From a virus: DNA of 64,000 bases. The notes under the pieces are model-generated. The model made no database searches and was not told where the DNA came from. It worked only from the letters and a program-made list of their open reading frames with translations. The DNA lies in the IMG/VR virus record IMGVR_UViG_3300025695_001209, positions 1 to 64,000 of that record, one strand, 5' to 3'. Within the stretch, counting starts at the first letter, position 1. Each line of letters begins with the position of its first letter. Shown piece by piece: positions 42,552-61,107 of this stretch. A program made the position numbers and the translations under genes.

Positions 42552-43403
42552 TTATACTTCTTTTTTCTCTCCTCCTTTAGTTAAATAAGTTTTAACTGGT
42601 TTATCATCTTTATATTCTTTATCCAGAAAATCTTTTATTGAATCAATATTTCCGGGGTCATCGTCTGAAAACCCAATCATAGGTACAAAGTTGTTTTTTA
42701 TGTCATTTTTAAAGAAAGCTCTTTGATTTAACTTTGAGGACATTTCTTTAACGTATGAAATGAAGTCTCTTAAAGCCTTAATCTTTCCTTCTTCAGGATT
42801 AGCTGCACTACCTTCTCCATATGTCACTGGATGAAACTTCAGTAAGTTTAGGTACATTTCAATCATATCATCATCAGTCATATCATCTTCACCCGTAAAG
42901 TCACGGTATTTTTTAAGATTACTAATTAATGTATCTTTACTAATACCCTTATGGTTAGTCATAATCATGTTATAGACCGCATCTCTTAAAACTGAAGGTG
43001 TATGTCCACGAGCAGTTATTATAGAGAATATTGACCCTCCGTTCACCGCTTCCACAAAATCACTCCATGAAGGTCCTTCATCCGCAACCATTGCATCTAC
43101 AATAAATTGTGAATCTCCCTTTACAGTAAAGTTTCTATATGGGTCTTCAGCATAACCTACAATATTATCACCATTATACATGAATGGTTCCTTACCTAAA
43201 ACCCCACGATACTCTGCGAAGTCTTCAGTTGACATACCCACCTCTTTACCATCGTCGGTTAAAACCATTATTTGAGTTGGCATGTTCAAAATGTTATCGT
43301 CCCAATCAAAAGCGTAATACTTTAAGTCGGGATTACCAACATCGTCAAAACCTTCTTTCAGCTCTTTTTCTTCGATGTACTCTCTTAAAATTTTACGAAC
43401 CAT
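42552..43403 (-). CDS. HAD-superfamily phosphatase-like enzyme in the tail operon
   Basis: This 283-residue protein shows HAD motifs in order: motif I YAFDWDDNI (D33, D35), motif II SIITARGHTP near residue 130, and motif IV IGFSDDDPGNID near residue 247, with Lys residues between that could serve as motif III. The substrate cannot be read from sequence; nucleotides, polynucleotide ends and phosphoproteins are all possible. The N-terminal 20 residues (RKILREYIEEKELKEG) are a separate helix with an Ile-x-Glu site, like a capsid-targeting peptide. It is coupled by TAATG to a 47-residue ORF and lies between the sheath and tube genes, an unusual place for an enzyme. Confidence 0.75.
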   Translation of the reverse strand: MVRKILREYIEEKELKEGFDDVGNPDLKYYAFDWDDNILNMPTQIMVLTDDGKEVGMSTEDFAEYRGVLGKEPFMYNGDNIVGYAEDPYRNFTVKGDSQFIVDAMVADEGPSWSDFVEAVNGGSIFSIITARGHTPSVLRDAVYNMIMTNHKGISKDTLISNLKKYRDFTGEDDMTDDDMIEMYLNLLKFHPVTYGEGSAANPEEGKIKALRDFISYVKEMSSKLNQRAFFKNDIKNNFVPMIGFSDDDPGNIDSIKDFLDKEYKDDKPVKTYLTKGGEKKEV

Positions 43404-48676: not shown

Positions 48677-50431
48677 ATGAAAGAAAATAATTTGGTTTCA
48701 AACGTCCCTGAAATAAGGGCCACCCGTATTTTAGAAGAGTACGAGGGGTATAACAATTATATACTTTTGTTAAAGAAAAAAATGCAAATTAAAAAACATT
48801 TTAAAATAACAAGGGCACAATCAGACTATGTAATCGACTTTCACGAGTTACAACCAAAAATCGCAAGAAAATGGGTTGAGTTAGATGAGTACTTCGGAAA
48901 TAAAATGAAAGAGGAAAAATTACTTCCCAAAAGACCCACTCAAATTTATGTTGAAAAAATATTAGTCGAAAAAGATAAATCGTTCCACATATATGGGAAA
49001 CTTTTTGAATCTGAAGACCTACATGATTTTTGGTTACCAAAAGCAGCAGTTATACAAAATAAAGAAAGGAAAGTCGAAATAGACTACACCAAATACTCAC
49101 ATAGACCACCTTTAGAACATCAAAAGCTGGCTGTTGAAAAATTAGTCGGTAACGATAAATATATTTTGGCGGATGATATGGGTCTTGGTAAAACAACCGC
49201 AACCGTAATGGCTGCGTTGGAAACAGGTGCAAAAAAGATATTAATTATATGTCCAGCATCATTAAAAATCAATTGGCAACGAGAGATTGAAAATTATACA
49301 GATAAGTCAATATCAATAGTTGAGGGTAAGAAATGGGAACCTGCTGACTTTATGATTATAAATTTCGATATACTAAAAAACTTCCATAACCTTAAAAAGG
49401 TAAAGGAATCGATAATACTGAACTACGGTTTTGATGTCGTGATAGTTGATGAGGCACATTATATACAAAACAAACAAGCCCAAAGAACAAAAATAGCCAA
49501 CGATATTTGTAATAAGGTCGGTAAAGTATGGTTACTAACAGGTACACCAATGACATCAAGACCAATTAACTACTTTAACTTATTAGATTTAGTTGACTCA
49601 CCTGTGGCATATAATTGGATGGCCTACGCGATTCGTTATTGTGAGGGGTATCAATTTAATGTAGGAAATAGAAAAGTTTGGAATGTTAACGGTTCTTCTA
49701 ATTTGATAGAATTAAGAGATAGAACAAAACCACACGTACTTAGACGATTAAAAGAAGATATATTGGACTTACCTGATAAAATATTAACACCCGTTTATTT
49801 ACGACTAAAATCAAAACAATATGAAGCACTTATGGGTGAGTACTTTGATTGGTATGAAAATTCAGAGGAATCTTCCTCATTAACCGTGCAGTTCTCAAAA
49901 CTAATGAAAGTCAGACAAATCATAGCAGAAGAAAAGGTTAGAGACACCATCGAGATTGCACAAAACATCATAGAACAAGGAAAAAAAGTTATTATTTTTA
50001 CAAACTTTACAGATACATTAAATCAAATAAAATCTCATTTTGGTAAAGACGCTGTGACATTAGACGGTAAAATGTCTAAACCCGCACGACAACACTCAGT
50101 TGATGAATTTCAAACAAACGATAAGGTTAAGGTTTTCGTTGGAAATCTGAAAGCTGCTGGTGTCGGGATTACATTGACATCTGCCGAAGCAGTAATAATG
50201 AATGATTTATCATTTGTACCCTCAGACCATTCACAGGCTGAGGACAGAGCTTATAGATACGGTCAAAAGTCTAACGTATCTGTCTTTTATCCGATATTTG
50301 AAAACTCTATCGAGGGTGCAATATACGACATATTATCAAAAAAGAAAAACGTTTTTGAAACTGTTATGGGGGATAATGAAGATAAGGGGAGTATTGTTGA
50401 AGAAATATTAAATACTATCACAAGAAGATAG
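48677..50431 (+). CDS. SNF2-family DNA translocase/helicase
   Basis: This 584-residue protein is an SF2 SNF2-type ATPase. After an N-terminal region of about 145 residues, it shows Walker A DDMGLGKTT (166-174), motif II VDEAH (257-261), motif III LLTGTP, motif IV-V TLDGKM and AAGVGITLTSA, and motif VI QAEDRAYRYGQ. The short form resembles SMARCAL1/annealing-helicase proteins and the functional slot of T4 UvsW. Likely roles are fork remodelling, branch migration or R-loop control. It is the first plus-strand gene of the module and diverges from gp14. Confidence 0.9.
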   Translation: MKENNLVSNVPEIRATRILEEYEGYNNYILLLKKKMQIKKHFKITRAQSDYVIDFHELQPKIARKWVELDEYFGNKMKEEKLLPKRPTQIYVEKILVEKDKSFHIYGKLFESEDLHDFWLPKAAVIQNKERKVEIDYTKYSHRPPLEHQKLAVEKLVGNDKYILADDMGLGKTTATVMAALETGAKKILIICPASLKINWQREIENYTDKSISIVEGKKWEPADFMIINFDILKNFHNLKKVKESIILNYGFDVVIVDEAHYIQNKQAQRTKIANDICNKVGKVWLLTGTPMTSRPINYFNLLDLVDSPVAYNWMAYAIRYCEGYQFNVGNRKVWNVNGSSNLIELRDRTKPHVLRRLKEDILDLPDKILTPVYLRLKSKQYEALMGEYFDWYENSEESSSLTVQFSKLMKVRQIIAEEKVRDTIEIAQNIIEQGKKVIIFTNFTDTLNQIKSHFGKDAVTLDGKMSKPARQHSVDEFQTNDKVKVFVGNLKAAGVGITLTSAEAVIMNDLSFVPSDHSQAEDRAYRYGQKSNVSVFYPIFENSIEGAIYDILSKKKNVFETVMGDNEDKGSIVEEILNTITRR

Positions 50432-50452: not shown

Positions 50453-50460
50453 TATTTATA
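50453..50460 (+). promoter_or_regulatory. Putative promoter element TATTTATA for the SOD-fusion gene
   Basis: The plus-strand TATTTATA ends 16 bases before the ATG at 50477, in the 45-base gap after the SNF2 gene. Confidence 0.55.
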
Positions 50461-50476
50461 TAAAAAACACATAATT

Positions 50477-52012
50477 ATGAAGTTTAAAAAAAGCCAAGAA
50501 CGAATTCAAGATATTGAAAAAACAATTAATGAATCAGAAAACAATCAAAAAATAAATGAAAATGTTAAAGGAGTAAAAAGAATAACGGCAATTAAGTTAC
50601 CTTATTCATACTCATCTTTAAGTCGTTTCATCGATAAAGAAACGATGAATGTTCATTACAATCAACACTATAAAGGGTATCTTAAAAAACTCAACAAGGC
50701 GTTAGAGTCGGTTAAGGACGAAGACTTAGAATTGGAACAGATTGTAAAGGGAATATCTCGTTACAATCAAACCATCAAAAATAACGCTGGTGGGGCATAT
50801 AACCACGAGTTATTTTGGCAAATGATGTCACCAAAACCACAACAACCAAATGGTCCAGTACTTGACAAAATTAAGCGTAAATTCAAAACTTTCGCCAATT
50901 TCAAAAAAGAATTTAAGAACAAATCATTATCTAAGTTTGGTTCAGGTTGGGTATGGTTGGTTCTAACAAAGAGTGGTGATGTTAAAATTATTACGACAAC
51001 CAATCAAGATAACCCGTTAATGAATACTGTAAAATTCGGTGGAATACCTTTATTAGGGTTAGACCTTTGGGAACACGCATATTATCTAAAATATAAAAAT
51101 AGAAGAAATGAATATGTTGATAATTTCTTTAAGGTGATTAATTGGTCGTTCGTAAACAAACAATTCGACACACATCAAAAAGGTAAGCTTAACGAGTCGA
51201 AAGTTGTGAAAGCACTTATTAGTGAAGGACTCTCTAAAGGATGTTCACCACAACAAGTGAATACATATCGAATGGTTTTCAATAGAAACCCACAAGTCAA
51301 AAAGAAGTTTATGTATGCAATTATGGATATACTAAAAGAAGTTTATTCAGAATTTCATTACGAAAAAAATCAATACGCAGATGGTCAAATGTCAGGGATT
51401 TATGATTTCGAACAACCAGGTCGTTCAGTCATAAATAAGTTGAACACAAACTACTCGGCCTTCTGTATTTTAGTGAATGACCTCAACGCAGTGTTAAAAC
51501 ATTATGGGCAGGACCCATTAAACTTTGTGGGTGTTAGTGACAAACAACAACTACGTGAAGTGCAAAGAATGATTAAATTGATGGTTCAGTTTAGATATAG
51601 GATTTTTAATCAAGAATCAGGGACATTCCAAAGTATCATGGCATCTTTAGATAAGACCAATAAGTTTGGTGATGAAAGAGAAATAAAGGCCGTCATTAAT
51701 ATGAAAAATATTTTTAATACTAAAAAAGTATTTAAAGTTGGTGAATTAGGTGGTAAAGATGATATGATTGGTGGTATCGATGCGACTGTTGAAATAGACG
51801 GACAAACAAAAACCATACAGGTTAAACCATTTAATAATACCGAAGAAAATGAAGATAGGACTACGGTATTTGGTACGGGTAATGTTAAACCATATAAAAC
51901 CGATTACATGTGTTTTCATAGTGATACAAAAGGAACTTTAGTGTTTAAAAATGACGACACTAAAATTGTTAATGGTAGGTATACTTTCCCTTCTGATAGT
52001 TTAGTGAATTAA
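50477..52012 (+). CDS. Mn/Fe superoxide dismutase fused to an Mrr-like nuclease domain
   Basis: This 511-residue protein has an N-terminal tail (1-38), a complete superoxide dismutase domain (39-230) and a C-terminal domain (about 240-511). The SOD opens ITAIKLPYSYSSLSRFI and keeps all four metal ligands: H60, H110, D196 and H200 in LGLDLWEHAYYLKYKNRR. NNAGGAYNHELFW and NQDNPLM favour the Mn type. In the C-terminal part, GGIDATVEIDGQTKTIQVK (D435, Q448-V-K450) matches the D-QxK catalytic layout of Mrr-type PD-(D/E)XK nucleases. Leu-Asn-Glu sites lie in the tail and at the domain junction (238-240). I know no such fusion. SOD assignment is firm; nuclease is likely; purpose is unknown. Confidence 0.88.
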   Translation: MKFKKSQERIQDIEKTINESENNQKINENVKGVKRITAIKLPYSYSSLSRFIDKETMNVHYNQHYKGYLKKLNKALESVKDEDLELEQIVKGISRYNQTIKNNAGGAYNHELFWQMMSPKPQQPNGPVLDKIKRKFKTFANFKKEFKNKSLSKFGSGWVWLVLTKSGDVKIITTTNQDNPLMNTVKFGGIPLLGLDLWEHAYYLKYKNRRNEYVDNFFKVINWSFVNKQFDTHQKGKLNESKVVKALISEGLSKGCSPQQVNTYRMVFNRNPQVKKKFMYAIMDILKEVYSEFHYEKNQYADGQMSGIYDFEQPGRSVINKLNTNYSAFCILVNDLNAVLKHYGQDPLNFVGVSDKQQLREVQRMIKLMVQFRYRIFNQESGTFQSIMASLDKTNKFGDEREIKAVINMKNIFNTKKVFKVGELGGKDDMIGGIDATVEIDGQTKTIQVKPFNNTEENEDRTTVFGTGNVKPYKTDYMCFHSDTKGTLVFKNDDTKIVNGRYTFPSDSLVN

Positions 52013-52055: not shown

Positions 52056-53168
52056 ATGTCAATTATTTTAGAACCACAAAGAACCAAATTATACACGAGA
52101 ATTCGTCACTTACTTGGTGCACCGATTAGGGGTATTGAGTTAGAAGATGAAATGATGGACTCATTATTAGAATTATCTATCGAGGATTATTCTCAATACG
52201 TTAATGATTGGTTAATTGAATCTCAATGGACATCTTTATATGGTCTTAATCAAGATACACAATCAGTTGCTAAGGCACTTATAACCCGTTCTTTAGACTG
52301 GGAAACTCAATACACATACGCATATTCTAAGATTGTGGGATTACAATCGGGTGGAGACTCTGAACTTAAAAAAGATTATTTTGACCTGAAAGCTAATCAA
52401 CAAATATACGAAATACCTGCAGGTAGAGAAATCAATGAACTTCTTTGGTTTACACGTGCTGAGCTTGACGCAGCTTTTTTCGACCCATTTATGGGTGGAT
52501 TTGGTGGATTTGGTGGTATCGGTTTAGGTGGTGGTGCTGGTTTCTCACAAATGGGTGGACAGGGTAATTATTTTGTATCACCAGGTTTTGACATCTTACT
52601 TAGAATGCAAGATATTAACATTAAAAGAAGGATAATTGGTGGTGAACTTACTTACAGAATAACCGCACTTCCTGAAGGTAAAAAAGCAATACACCTATAT
52701 AACGTACCAGGTGGTAAGTTTGATTTTGGTAATATGGCAAACAACAACTACAGAGTATGGTATTGGTATTATGAAACCGAAGATAGAGAGAGTTGTTTAG
52801 ATAAGCACCCTGATATCGTTCGTTTACCGTCTGATGTGAATTTAGAAAACTTAAGATGGGGTGAACTTAATTCACCTGCACAAACATGGGTTCGTAGATG
52901 GTTCACCGCATATGTTAAAGAGACCTTAGGTCGAGTTCGTGGTAAATTTAGTGGTAATTTAAAAACACCAGATTCTGAGTTACAGTTAGAATATGACTCA
53001 TTATTAAGTGAATCTAAAGATGAAAAATCAAAATTAGAGGAAGAGTTAAAAATGAGATTAGAAAGACTTCGTCCTGATAAAATGATGGAAGTTAAGGCTA
53101 ATCAAGCAGAAAGTCTAAACAAATCTTTACAATATAGAGCACTTCCACGTCAGATTTATGTGATTTAA
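52056..53168 (+). CDS. 13: Neck protein, T4 gp13-like
   Basis: This 370-residue protein has the gp13 pattern. It begins with a helical region (RTKLYTRIRHLLGAPIRGIE, then ELEDEMMDSLLELSIEDYSQ). A Gly-rich loop of about 40 residues (FGGFGGIGLGGGAG) follows. Its C-terminal helical block contains VKETLGRVRGKFSG, a PDSELQLEYDSLLSESKDEK segment and LERLRPDKMMEVKANQAESL, which matches gp13 closely. T4 gp13 is 309 residues. It forms the neck between portal and tail. It is in a plus-strand unit, opposite to gp14/gp15, so the neck genes are split between strands. Confidence 0.85.
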   Translation: MSIILEPQRTKLYTRIRHLLGAPIRGIELEDEMMDSLLELSIEDYSQYVNDWLIESQWTSLYGLNQDTQSVAKALITRSLDWETQYTYAYSKIVGLQSGGDSELKKDYFDLKANQQIYEIPAGREINELLWFTRAELDAAFFDPFMGGFGGFGGIGLGGGAGFSQMGGQGNYFVSPGFDILLRMQDINIKRRIIGGELTYRITALPEGKKAIHLYNVPGGKFDFGNMANNNYRVWYWYYETEDRESCLDKHPDIVRLPSDVNLENLRWGELNSPAQTWVRRWFTAYVKETLGRVRGKFSGNLKTPDSELQLEYDSLLSESKDEKSKLEEELKMRLERLRPDKMMEVKANQAESLNKSLQYRALPRQIYVI

Positions 53169-60415: not shown

Positions 60416-60712
60416 ATGGCAGAACAAAACGACAGATTAGATTTTTCACAACCAAAGAATAGTTTGAGTGAAATCGCAGAAAGAGAAAGAGCAAAACTTT
60501 TCCCACGTAATGACTATTCACCTCTTTCAGACAAGTATTCGGCGGAACATCCTGATGCTTTAGCTGACGGAGACGATGAAGGTAGAGGTACAGGAGTATT
60601 TTTAGATATACATAATTTAGGTGGTGGTACAAGTACCGACATCAATGAAAGAAATGACGATATCAAAATTAATAAGTACAACTATAAAAACGGTTATAAA
60701 GTAGAGGACTAA
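60416..60712 (+). CDS. Hypothetical protein, 98 aa
   Basis: This 98-residue protein starts one base after the previous stop. It is hydrophilic and likely disordered, with an Arg/Glu helix (SEIAERERAKLFPRNDYS), an acidic Gly-rich middle and a Lys/Tyr/Asn-rich end. Its TAA overlaps the next ATG by one base. No function can be assigned. Confidence 0.45.
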   Translation: MAEQNDRLDFSQPKNSLSEIAERERAKLFPRNDYSPLSDKYSAEHPDALADGDDEGRGTGVFLDIHNLGGGTSTDINERNDDIKINKYNYKNGYKVED

Positions 60713-61107
60713 TGAAACTACAGGAAACCCTAAGGTCGGTTCTTTTAGAGGTGGCGTCAATGGATGACGTACAAAGAGCGATAAAACAAAAACAAGTGGT
60801 CACCATATTCTATGATGGTGACGAACCTGGTGGTCGTGGTTTTAGAACTATTGAACCTGTTTGTTTTGGGTTTTCAAAAGCGGGTAATAGAGTCTTACGA
60901 GGTTGGGACATGGAAGGTGCGTCTCACACCGCATTAAAAGGTGAACAACCCTTACCAGGGTGGAGATTATTTAGGTTAGATAAGATAACGACATTTAAAC
61001 CTACCTTAGATAACTTTACATCTCCCAGACCCGGCTATAACTTTAATGGGGACAAGAGTATGTCAAGAGTAATAATCAACGCACAATTTAATAACGAAAA
61101 TGAATAA
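60712..61107 (+). CDS. WYL-like domain protein
   Basis: This 131-residue protein has a core that resembles a WYL-type SH3-like fold: RTIEPVCFGFSKAGNRVLRG, then WRLFRLDKITTFKP. WYL domains bind small ligands or nucleic acid in bacterial regulators and also occur alone in phages. The N-terminal helix (MKLQETLRSVLLEVASMDDV) contains a Leu-Leu-Glu site like a capsid-targeting peptide. There is no HTH domain, so a regulatory role is only one option. It overlaps both neighbours. Confidence 0.55.
   Translation: MKLQETLRSVLLEVASMDDVQRAIKQKQVVTIFYDGDEPGGRGFRTIEPVCFGFSKAGNRVLRGWDMEGASHTALKGEQPLPGWRLFRLDKITTFKPTLDNFTSPRPGYNFNGDKSMSRVIINAQFNNENE

Follow-up and report, generated by a model that had tools for sequence, protein, structure and literature searches.

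A superoxide dismutase in frame with a PD-(D/E)XK-type module in uncultured T4-like phages, flanked by prohead-protease-type motifs

Two enzyme domains in one phage reading frame

A reading frame in which a superoxide dismutase (SOD) continues into a nuclease-like domain raises the question of whether the two halves belong together and what a T4-like phage would use them for. We analyzed a stretch of 64,000 nucleotides (hereafter the window; positions 1 to 64,000 of IMG/VR record IMGVR_UViG_3300025695_001209), in which the gene occupies positions 50477–52012 of the plus strand. The ORF starts with ATG, ends with TAA and comprises 511 codons with zero internal stops (511 aa, 59 kDa, pI 9.5), which confirms that a single uninterrupted ORF joins both domains.

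The SOD domain spans residues 39–231 (50591–51169, +), as indicated by Pfam, PDB and the predicted fold. Sod_Fe_N matched residues 39–118 (E = 7e-21) and Sod_Fe_C residues 125–228 (E = 1e-38), both well over the cut-off, and the top PDB sequence match was the C. difficile SOD (E = 9e-56, residues 40–226). The best Foldseek matches of the predicted SOD half were MnSODs; note that this fold was taken from a 15-sequence model that was weak overall (pLDDT 73) and of which the SOD half alone was used. The ligands H60, H110, D196 and H200, together with G106 and Q177, were invariant in 79/79 distinct fusion relatives, as were the second-shell residues H64, Y68, W158, W198, E199 and Y203. Mn-type markers were also present, namely GG at 105–106 preceding H110, and Q177 within NQDNPLM. 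The two Pfam domains, the four metal ligands and the Mn-type residues place the domain in the Fe/Mn SOD family, and the sequence-only reading was correct in calling it a complete Mn-type SOD with these four ligands. Further, the domain is under strong purifying selection (median dN/dS 0.042), and it is likely that it has superoxide dismutase activity.

The phage domain resembles the bacterial MnSODs of C. difficile (3tjt) and Sphingobacterium sp. T2 (6gsc) in the whole fold, the ligands and the second-shell residues, at 39–43% identity. Unlike these enzymes, the fusion SODs form a single clade of their own (98), apart from the fetched bacterial SODs and from other phage SODs, and they carry an attached nuclease-type module and protease-type motifs at their flanks.

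The C-terminal module (residues 251–511; 51227–52009, +) had no significant sequence match in Pfam or PDB, and its sole sequence-level match was phrog_5018, of function unknown (E = 7e-4). In an AlphaFold2 model built from 51 sequences (pLDDT 88, pTM 0.80), a helical part is followed by a PD-(D/E)XK-type core. When this model was searched with Foldseek, ranks 1–12 were all occupied by the PD-(D/E)XK superfamily (probability up to 0.99, TM up to ~0.5). The E-values of these matches were modest, ranging from 5e-3 to ~0.5, and membership of the superfamily is therefore supported, short of proven. The nearest solved folds were I-Ssp6803I (probability 0.99), NhoI and archaeal Hjc resolvases, the likeness to Hjc being weak (E 0.1–1); viral fold matches included phage proteins annotated as Holliday-junction resolvases.

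GGID and IQVK lie where they had been reported (residues 432–435 and 447–450). The putative active site, composed of E402, D435 of GGID and Q448-x-K450 of IQVK (51680–51826, +), was invariant in 104/104 family members, so that both the predicted alpha-beta core and the motif residues of the superfamily are present. The module is also under strong purifying selection (median dN/dS 0.061). An Mrr-like domain had been proposed; the PD-(D/E)XK-type core stood up in the model, but "Mrr-like" was too specific, as Mrr_cat gave no match at E ≤ 1 with the whole protein and Mrr and restriction-endonuclease Pfam models gave none at E ≤ 0.1 across 52 C-terminal modules. The module shares the predicted core fold with E...D...QxK with I-Ssp6803I, NhoI and archaeal Hjc, and differs from them in its additional N-terminal helical part and in having no significant sequence match. 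The module would be a DNA-cutting nuclease of the PD-(D/E)XK type. It would represent a new family of this type, with 359 relatives from one scan. Thus, the presence in a T4-like phage of a complete MnSOD in frame with a PD-(D/E)XK-type domain is supported.

Recurrence of the fusion and history of the locus

A scan of IMG/VR showed that the SOD-nuclease fusion is present in many contigs. The search with a C-terminal profile gave 359 relatives, of which the best 80 were examined, and a further set was seeded from a member without SOD. Among the matches listed, complete genes comprised at least 79 distinct fusions and at least 24 distinct SOD-less forms. In addition, a 735-kb phage carried the C-terminal module as a stand-alone protein (L024), of which no relatives were found on search.

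The gene order in the compared loci was helicase, fusion gene, head-tail adaptor, small gene and then DNA polymerase, with two neck-region genes together on the opposite strand. In the window, the 5′ neighbour matched the PHROG DNA helicase (48677–50431, +; E = 1.5e-109) and the 3′ neighbour the PHROG head-tail adaptor Ad2 (neck gene; 52056–53168, +; E = 1e-10). The helicase adjoined the family gene in 108/109 loci and the head-tail adaptor in 101/109, and SOD-less genes were found at the same position as the fusions. Because the fusion recurs across many metagenomes with conserved synteny, an assembly join was ruled out, and the search for the same domain pair elsewhere, which had been suggested as a check, returned the 79 distinct fusion relatives of the matches listed at this same locus.

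The fusion was absent from isolates among 50,697 phage records. A search for a cellular carrier gave 21 genome matches, none close to the phage SOD; these were SODs of Sphingobacterium, Clostridioides and similar bacteria at 38–50%. The phages may perhaps infect Bacteroidota. In open-access papers, we found no SOD-nuclease fusion described for a phage. However, UniProt entry A0A6J5L953 (501 aa, uncultured Caudovirales phage), which is labelled only "superoxide dismutase", matches the C-terminal module over its full length (E = 1.6e-26, 37% identity) and is therefore evidently the same fusion, already deposited under a name that reflects neither the second module nor the motifs. The fold of the module also occurs inside a far longer chain, A0A8D9CCA0 of an uncultured marine phage (1113 aa), which would fit a module that pairs with different partners.

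A promoter-like motif, TATTTATATA (50453–50462, +), lies just 5′ of the fusion start. TATTTAT was found within 80 nt upstream of 94/108 distinct family genes, where 0.028 are expected per gene. TATTTATA was found upstream of the neck gene in 79/86 cases, of the helicase in 3/74 and of the DNA polymerase in 0/8, and genome-wide it preceded ORFs in sense orientation 47 times in genome G001 vs 2.9 by chance. In this phage group it stands in sense upstream of many genes, in the window at 50453, 52034, 27588, 39023 and other positions. Read on the opposite strand, TATTTATA gives the T4 late box TATAAATA, which is rarer at that place here. We considered TATTTAT as a late promoter, a reading that was weakened by the capsid gene, which lacks the motif carried by the fusion gene and the neck gene; we therefore call it a phage promoter-like motif, not a late promoter. 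Elsewhere in the window, near its left end, positions 1208–1827 hold a degenerate tandem-repeat array with a 48-bp unit and larger periods of 138–234, possibly encoding a repetitive protein.

In a tree of the C-terminal module, the presence of the SOD required three changes, the distant SOD-less outgroup included. This was a quick tree rooted on a very long branch, and the direction of change is read from it with that reservation; apparently, a single gain of the SOD was followed by about two losses. A deletion scar, INEMKKIEIEKL-KSIISEG, persists in one SOD-less type (L143/L144). The sequence of this type reads ...PSINEMKKIEIEKLKSIISEGKSERCS, in which the first SOD residues are fused to the third motif (described below) and the nuclease module, the SOD having been cleanly deleted. 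On account of the losses and this scar, it is the nuclease module that stays constant in the family, with the SOD as optional cargo, a point that the sequence-only reading had missed.

This history also bears on the suggestion that the SOD serves as a purely structural module. Fe/Mn SODs are dimers in which E199, H200 and Y203 bridge the two subunits, and the conservation of these residues would suit a SOD that dimerises or folds the nuclease without a catalytic purpose. However, Y68, Q177, H64 and the ligands are invariant too, at a dN/dS of 0.04 for the domain, and the nuclease survives without SOD in two lineages, so its folding needs no SOD. We consider this explanation very improbable; the invariance of the catalytic residues, the purifying selection and the clean loss in two lineages all speak against a purely structural role.

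Protease-type motifs at the domain borders

The N-terminal leader (residues 1–28; 50477–50560, +) is weakly conserved in the alignment and, judged by eye, has no hydrophobic core typical of a secretion signal; we propose that it is a capsid-targeting propeptide. It ends with motif 1, I26-N27-E28 ([I/L]-x-E; 50552–50560, +), a proposed prohead-protease site before the SOD. Two motifs of the form [I/L/V]-x-E follow the SOD, namely motif 2, L238-N239-E240 (51188–51196, +), a proposed cleavage site 3′ of the SOD, and motif 3, I248-S249-E250 (51218–51226, +), a proposed site ahead of the nuclease module. With a slash after the Glu, the three read INE28/N, LNE240/S and ISE250/G. Relatives keep [I/L/V]-x-E at these borders, while the neighbouring residues drift.

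Among 18 clusters of relatives (<75% identity), [IL]-x-E was present in the leader in 18/18, against 8.4 expected when each sequence is shuffled, and two [ILV]-x-E were present in the linker in 18/18, against 2.1 expected after shuffling. The leader of one of these clusters (L071) was scored as start-truncated, and in-frame upstream reading also gives ILLE/M. Taken by itself, the leader site exceeds chance only about twofold. Selection on the leader is relaxed, with a median dN/dS of 0.36 vs 0.04–0.06 for the domains. Most SOD-less members retain the leader, [ILV]xE and the nuclease, and many have LVLSE/S as the counterpart of motif 3. Against processing, [IL]-x-E is a short motif that also occurs inside the folded domains (e.g., L197-W198-E199), and several members without SOD have a displaced leader motif or none (L134: LVLIQT).

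In T4, the protease gp21 cuts head proteins after L/I-X-E (PMC9026906, PMC9958956), and the capsid protein gp23 loses a 65-residue N-terminal propeptide (PMC9958956). Short N-terminal propeptides with the motif direct internal proteins into the T4 prohead, and foreign enzymes given such a leader are packaged in the T4 head and delivered (PMC9026906). Peptidase_S77, the gp21-family protease, was above the cut-off in 10/10 large relatives, a set outside which the window's 72.8-kb fragment record falls. The same 10/10 encode a Gp23-type major capsid protein, which reads LINE60/A in all ten, near the T4 gp23 cut position. The family thus has two features of T4-type internal head proteins: a leader ending in L/I-x-E, albeit a short motif, and, in the large relatives, a genome-encoded gp21-type protease. 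The sequence-only reading had missed these conserved motifs of prohead-protease type, which flank the domains and lie in the linker that joins them; they suggest that SOD and nuclease come apart within the capsid.

Variable leaders ending in [IL]xE, ahead of a conserved body, also occur in further proteins of these genomes. In the window, two more proteins with short variable leaders of this kind are encoded at 42552–43403 (−) and 60712–61107 (+). These (KELKE/GFDD and SVLLE/VASMDD) are conserved in the relatives G001, G003 and G009, and neither protein had a Pfam match; on the strength of these leaders, both are candidates for capsid targeting. A stand-alone SOD on another phage contig (L021:5941-6564) has a GTG start and the N-terminus SKFNNIYNLVLE/GSD, which looks like a capsid-targeting leader; the S77 protease was not detectable on this contig, a fragment. 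In L067 and L068, the leader is out of frame with the SOD, owing to a frameshift or a sequencing error, and EILKE/M is in frame with it.

A Met follows site 1 directly in many members (LLTE/MKKIGIE), and an internal start could explain that stretch. The leader would then be an unused 5′ extension and translation would give a cytoplasmic SOD-nuclease, as the weak conservation of the leader and its frame in L067/L068 would allow. However, the clade of the window lacks that Met (INE/N) and retains the leader, the −3 and Glu positions are held while the remaining leader drifts, and the leader is present in SOD-less forms too. We regard an internal start as improbable.

A more serious alternative, although still an unlikely one, is that the protein acts uncleaved as a bifunctional enzyme in the infected cell. 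The SOD would lower superoxide close to a nuclease whose substrate is phage DNA and which might, like T4 gp49, resolve Holliday junctions or act in packaging, and the [IL]xE motifs would be mere helical linker sequence. The fold neighbours include archaeal Hjc and annotated phage Holliday-junction resolvases, and the gene adjoins the helicase and the neck gene. Further, six large relatives had no RuvC, no RusA and no endonuclease VII over the cut-off, which keeps a resolvase role alive; as proof of such a role, this absence was set aside as merely suggestive. However, the fold likeness to Hjc is weak, and an uncleaved enzyme leaves unexplained why three [ILV]xE motifs are conserved exactly at the domain borders and why the leader is kept in most SOD-less forms.

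A proposed packaged polyprotein

We give an even chance to the reading that the product is an internal head protein targeted to the capsid, where cleavage in the prohead would yield an SOD and a nuclease that are both packaged and injected. The polyprotein, consisting of leader, SOD, short linker and nuclease-type module, would be an internal (ejection) head protein whose leader directs it to the prohead core. The gp21-type prohead protease would cleave after E28, E240 and E250, releasing an SOD of residues 29–240 (24.9 kDa, pI 9.8, computed) and a nuclease of residues 251–511 (29.9 kDa, pI 8.8, computed). Both fragments would be packaged with the genome and then enter the host; their basic charge fits DNA-packed proteins. 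The position of the gene beside neck genes was also counted in favour of a head protein. The SOD would scavenge superoxide early in infection, shielding phage DNA and metabolism, while the nuclease module would keep an older, constant job, cutting host DNA, competitor DNA or branched DNA at packaging. The fuller proposal, in which the protease splits the polyprotein in the capsid and the antioxidant enzyme and the nuclease are co-injected as a pre-emptive defence against an oxidative burst, is more tentative and falls somewhat short of an even chance. We infer the packaging, cleavage, injection, metal loading and biological purpose of the protein from its sequence and relatives; we found no virion proteomics for fusion-carrying phages. 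To our knowledge, no bacteriophage with a superoxide dismutase in its particle has been described.

The T4 internal head proteins cut by gp21 (IPI–III, Alt) are alike in their leader ending in [IL]-x-E, their basic cargo and, as seen in the relatives, the S77 protease. In contrast to these, the cargo of the fusion, which would be packaged in the same way, is an antioxidant enzyme with a nuclease-type module, with two extra sites between the domains. The Cu/Zn SOD of chlorovirus PBCV-1 is likewise virus-encoded, a late product that is packaged in virions (PMC7019647). It differs in its unrelated fold and metal, its eukaryotic host and its stand-alone form, and packaging of the phage fusion is by comparison presumptive. 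PA5oct/Callisto-type Pseudomonas phages and Vibrio phage 2.275.O have stand-alone SODs of the same Fe/Mn family. These are unfused, ~27–30% identical and on different branches from the fusion clade, and they lie among chaperone/protease or translation-type genes, whereas the fusion lies beside neck genes. A further precedent is that the plaquing of a T4-like Campylobacter phage was reduced on host katA, ahpC and sodB mutants (PMC8540345).

The locus offers an example of a proposed ejection-protein gene that gains and loses an enzyme domain at proposed protease sites. If the packaged polyprotein is true, the T4-like phages of this large uncultured group carry protection from superoxide into the host with them, which would imply that superoxide is a genuine danger as infection begins, or that the host uses it as a weapon at that stage.
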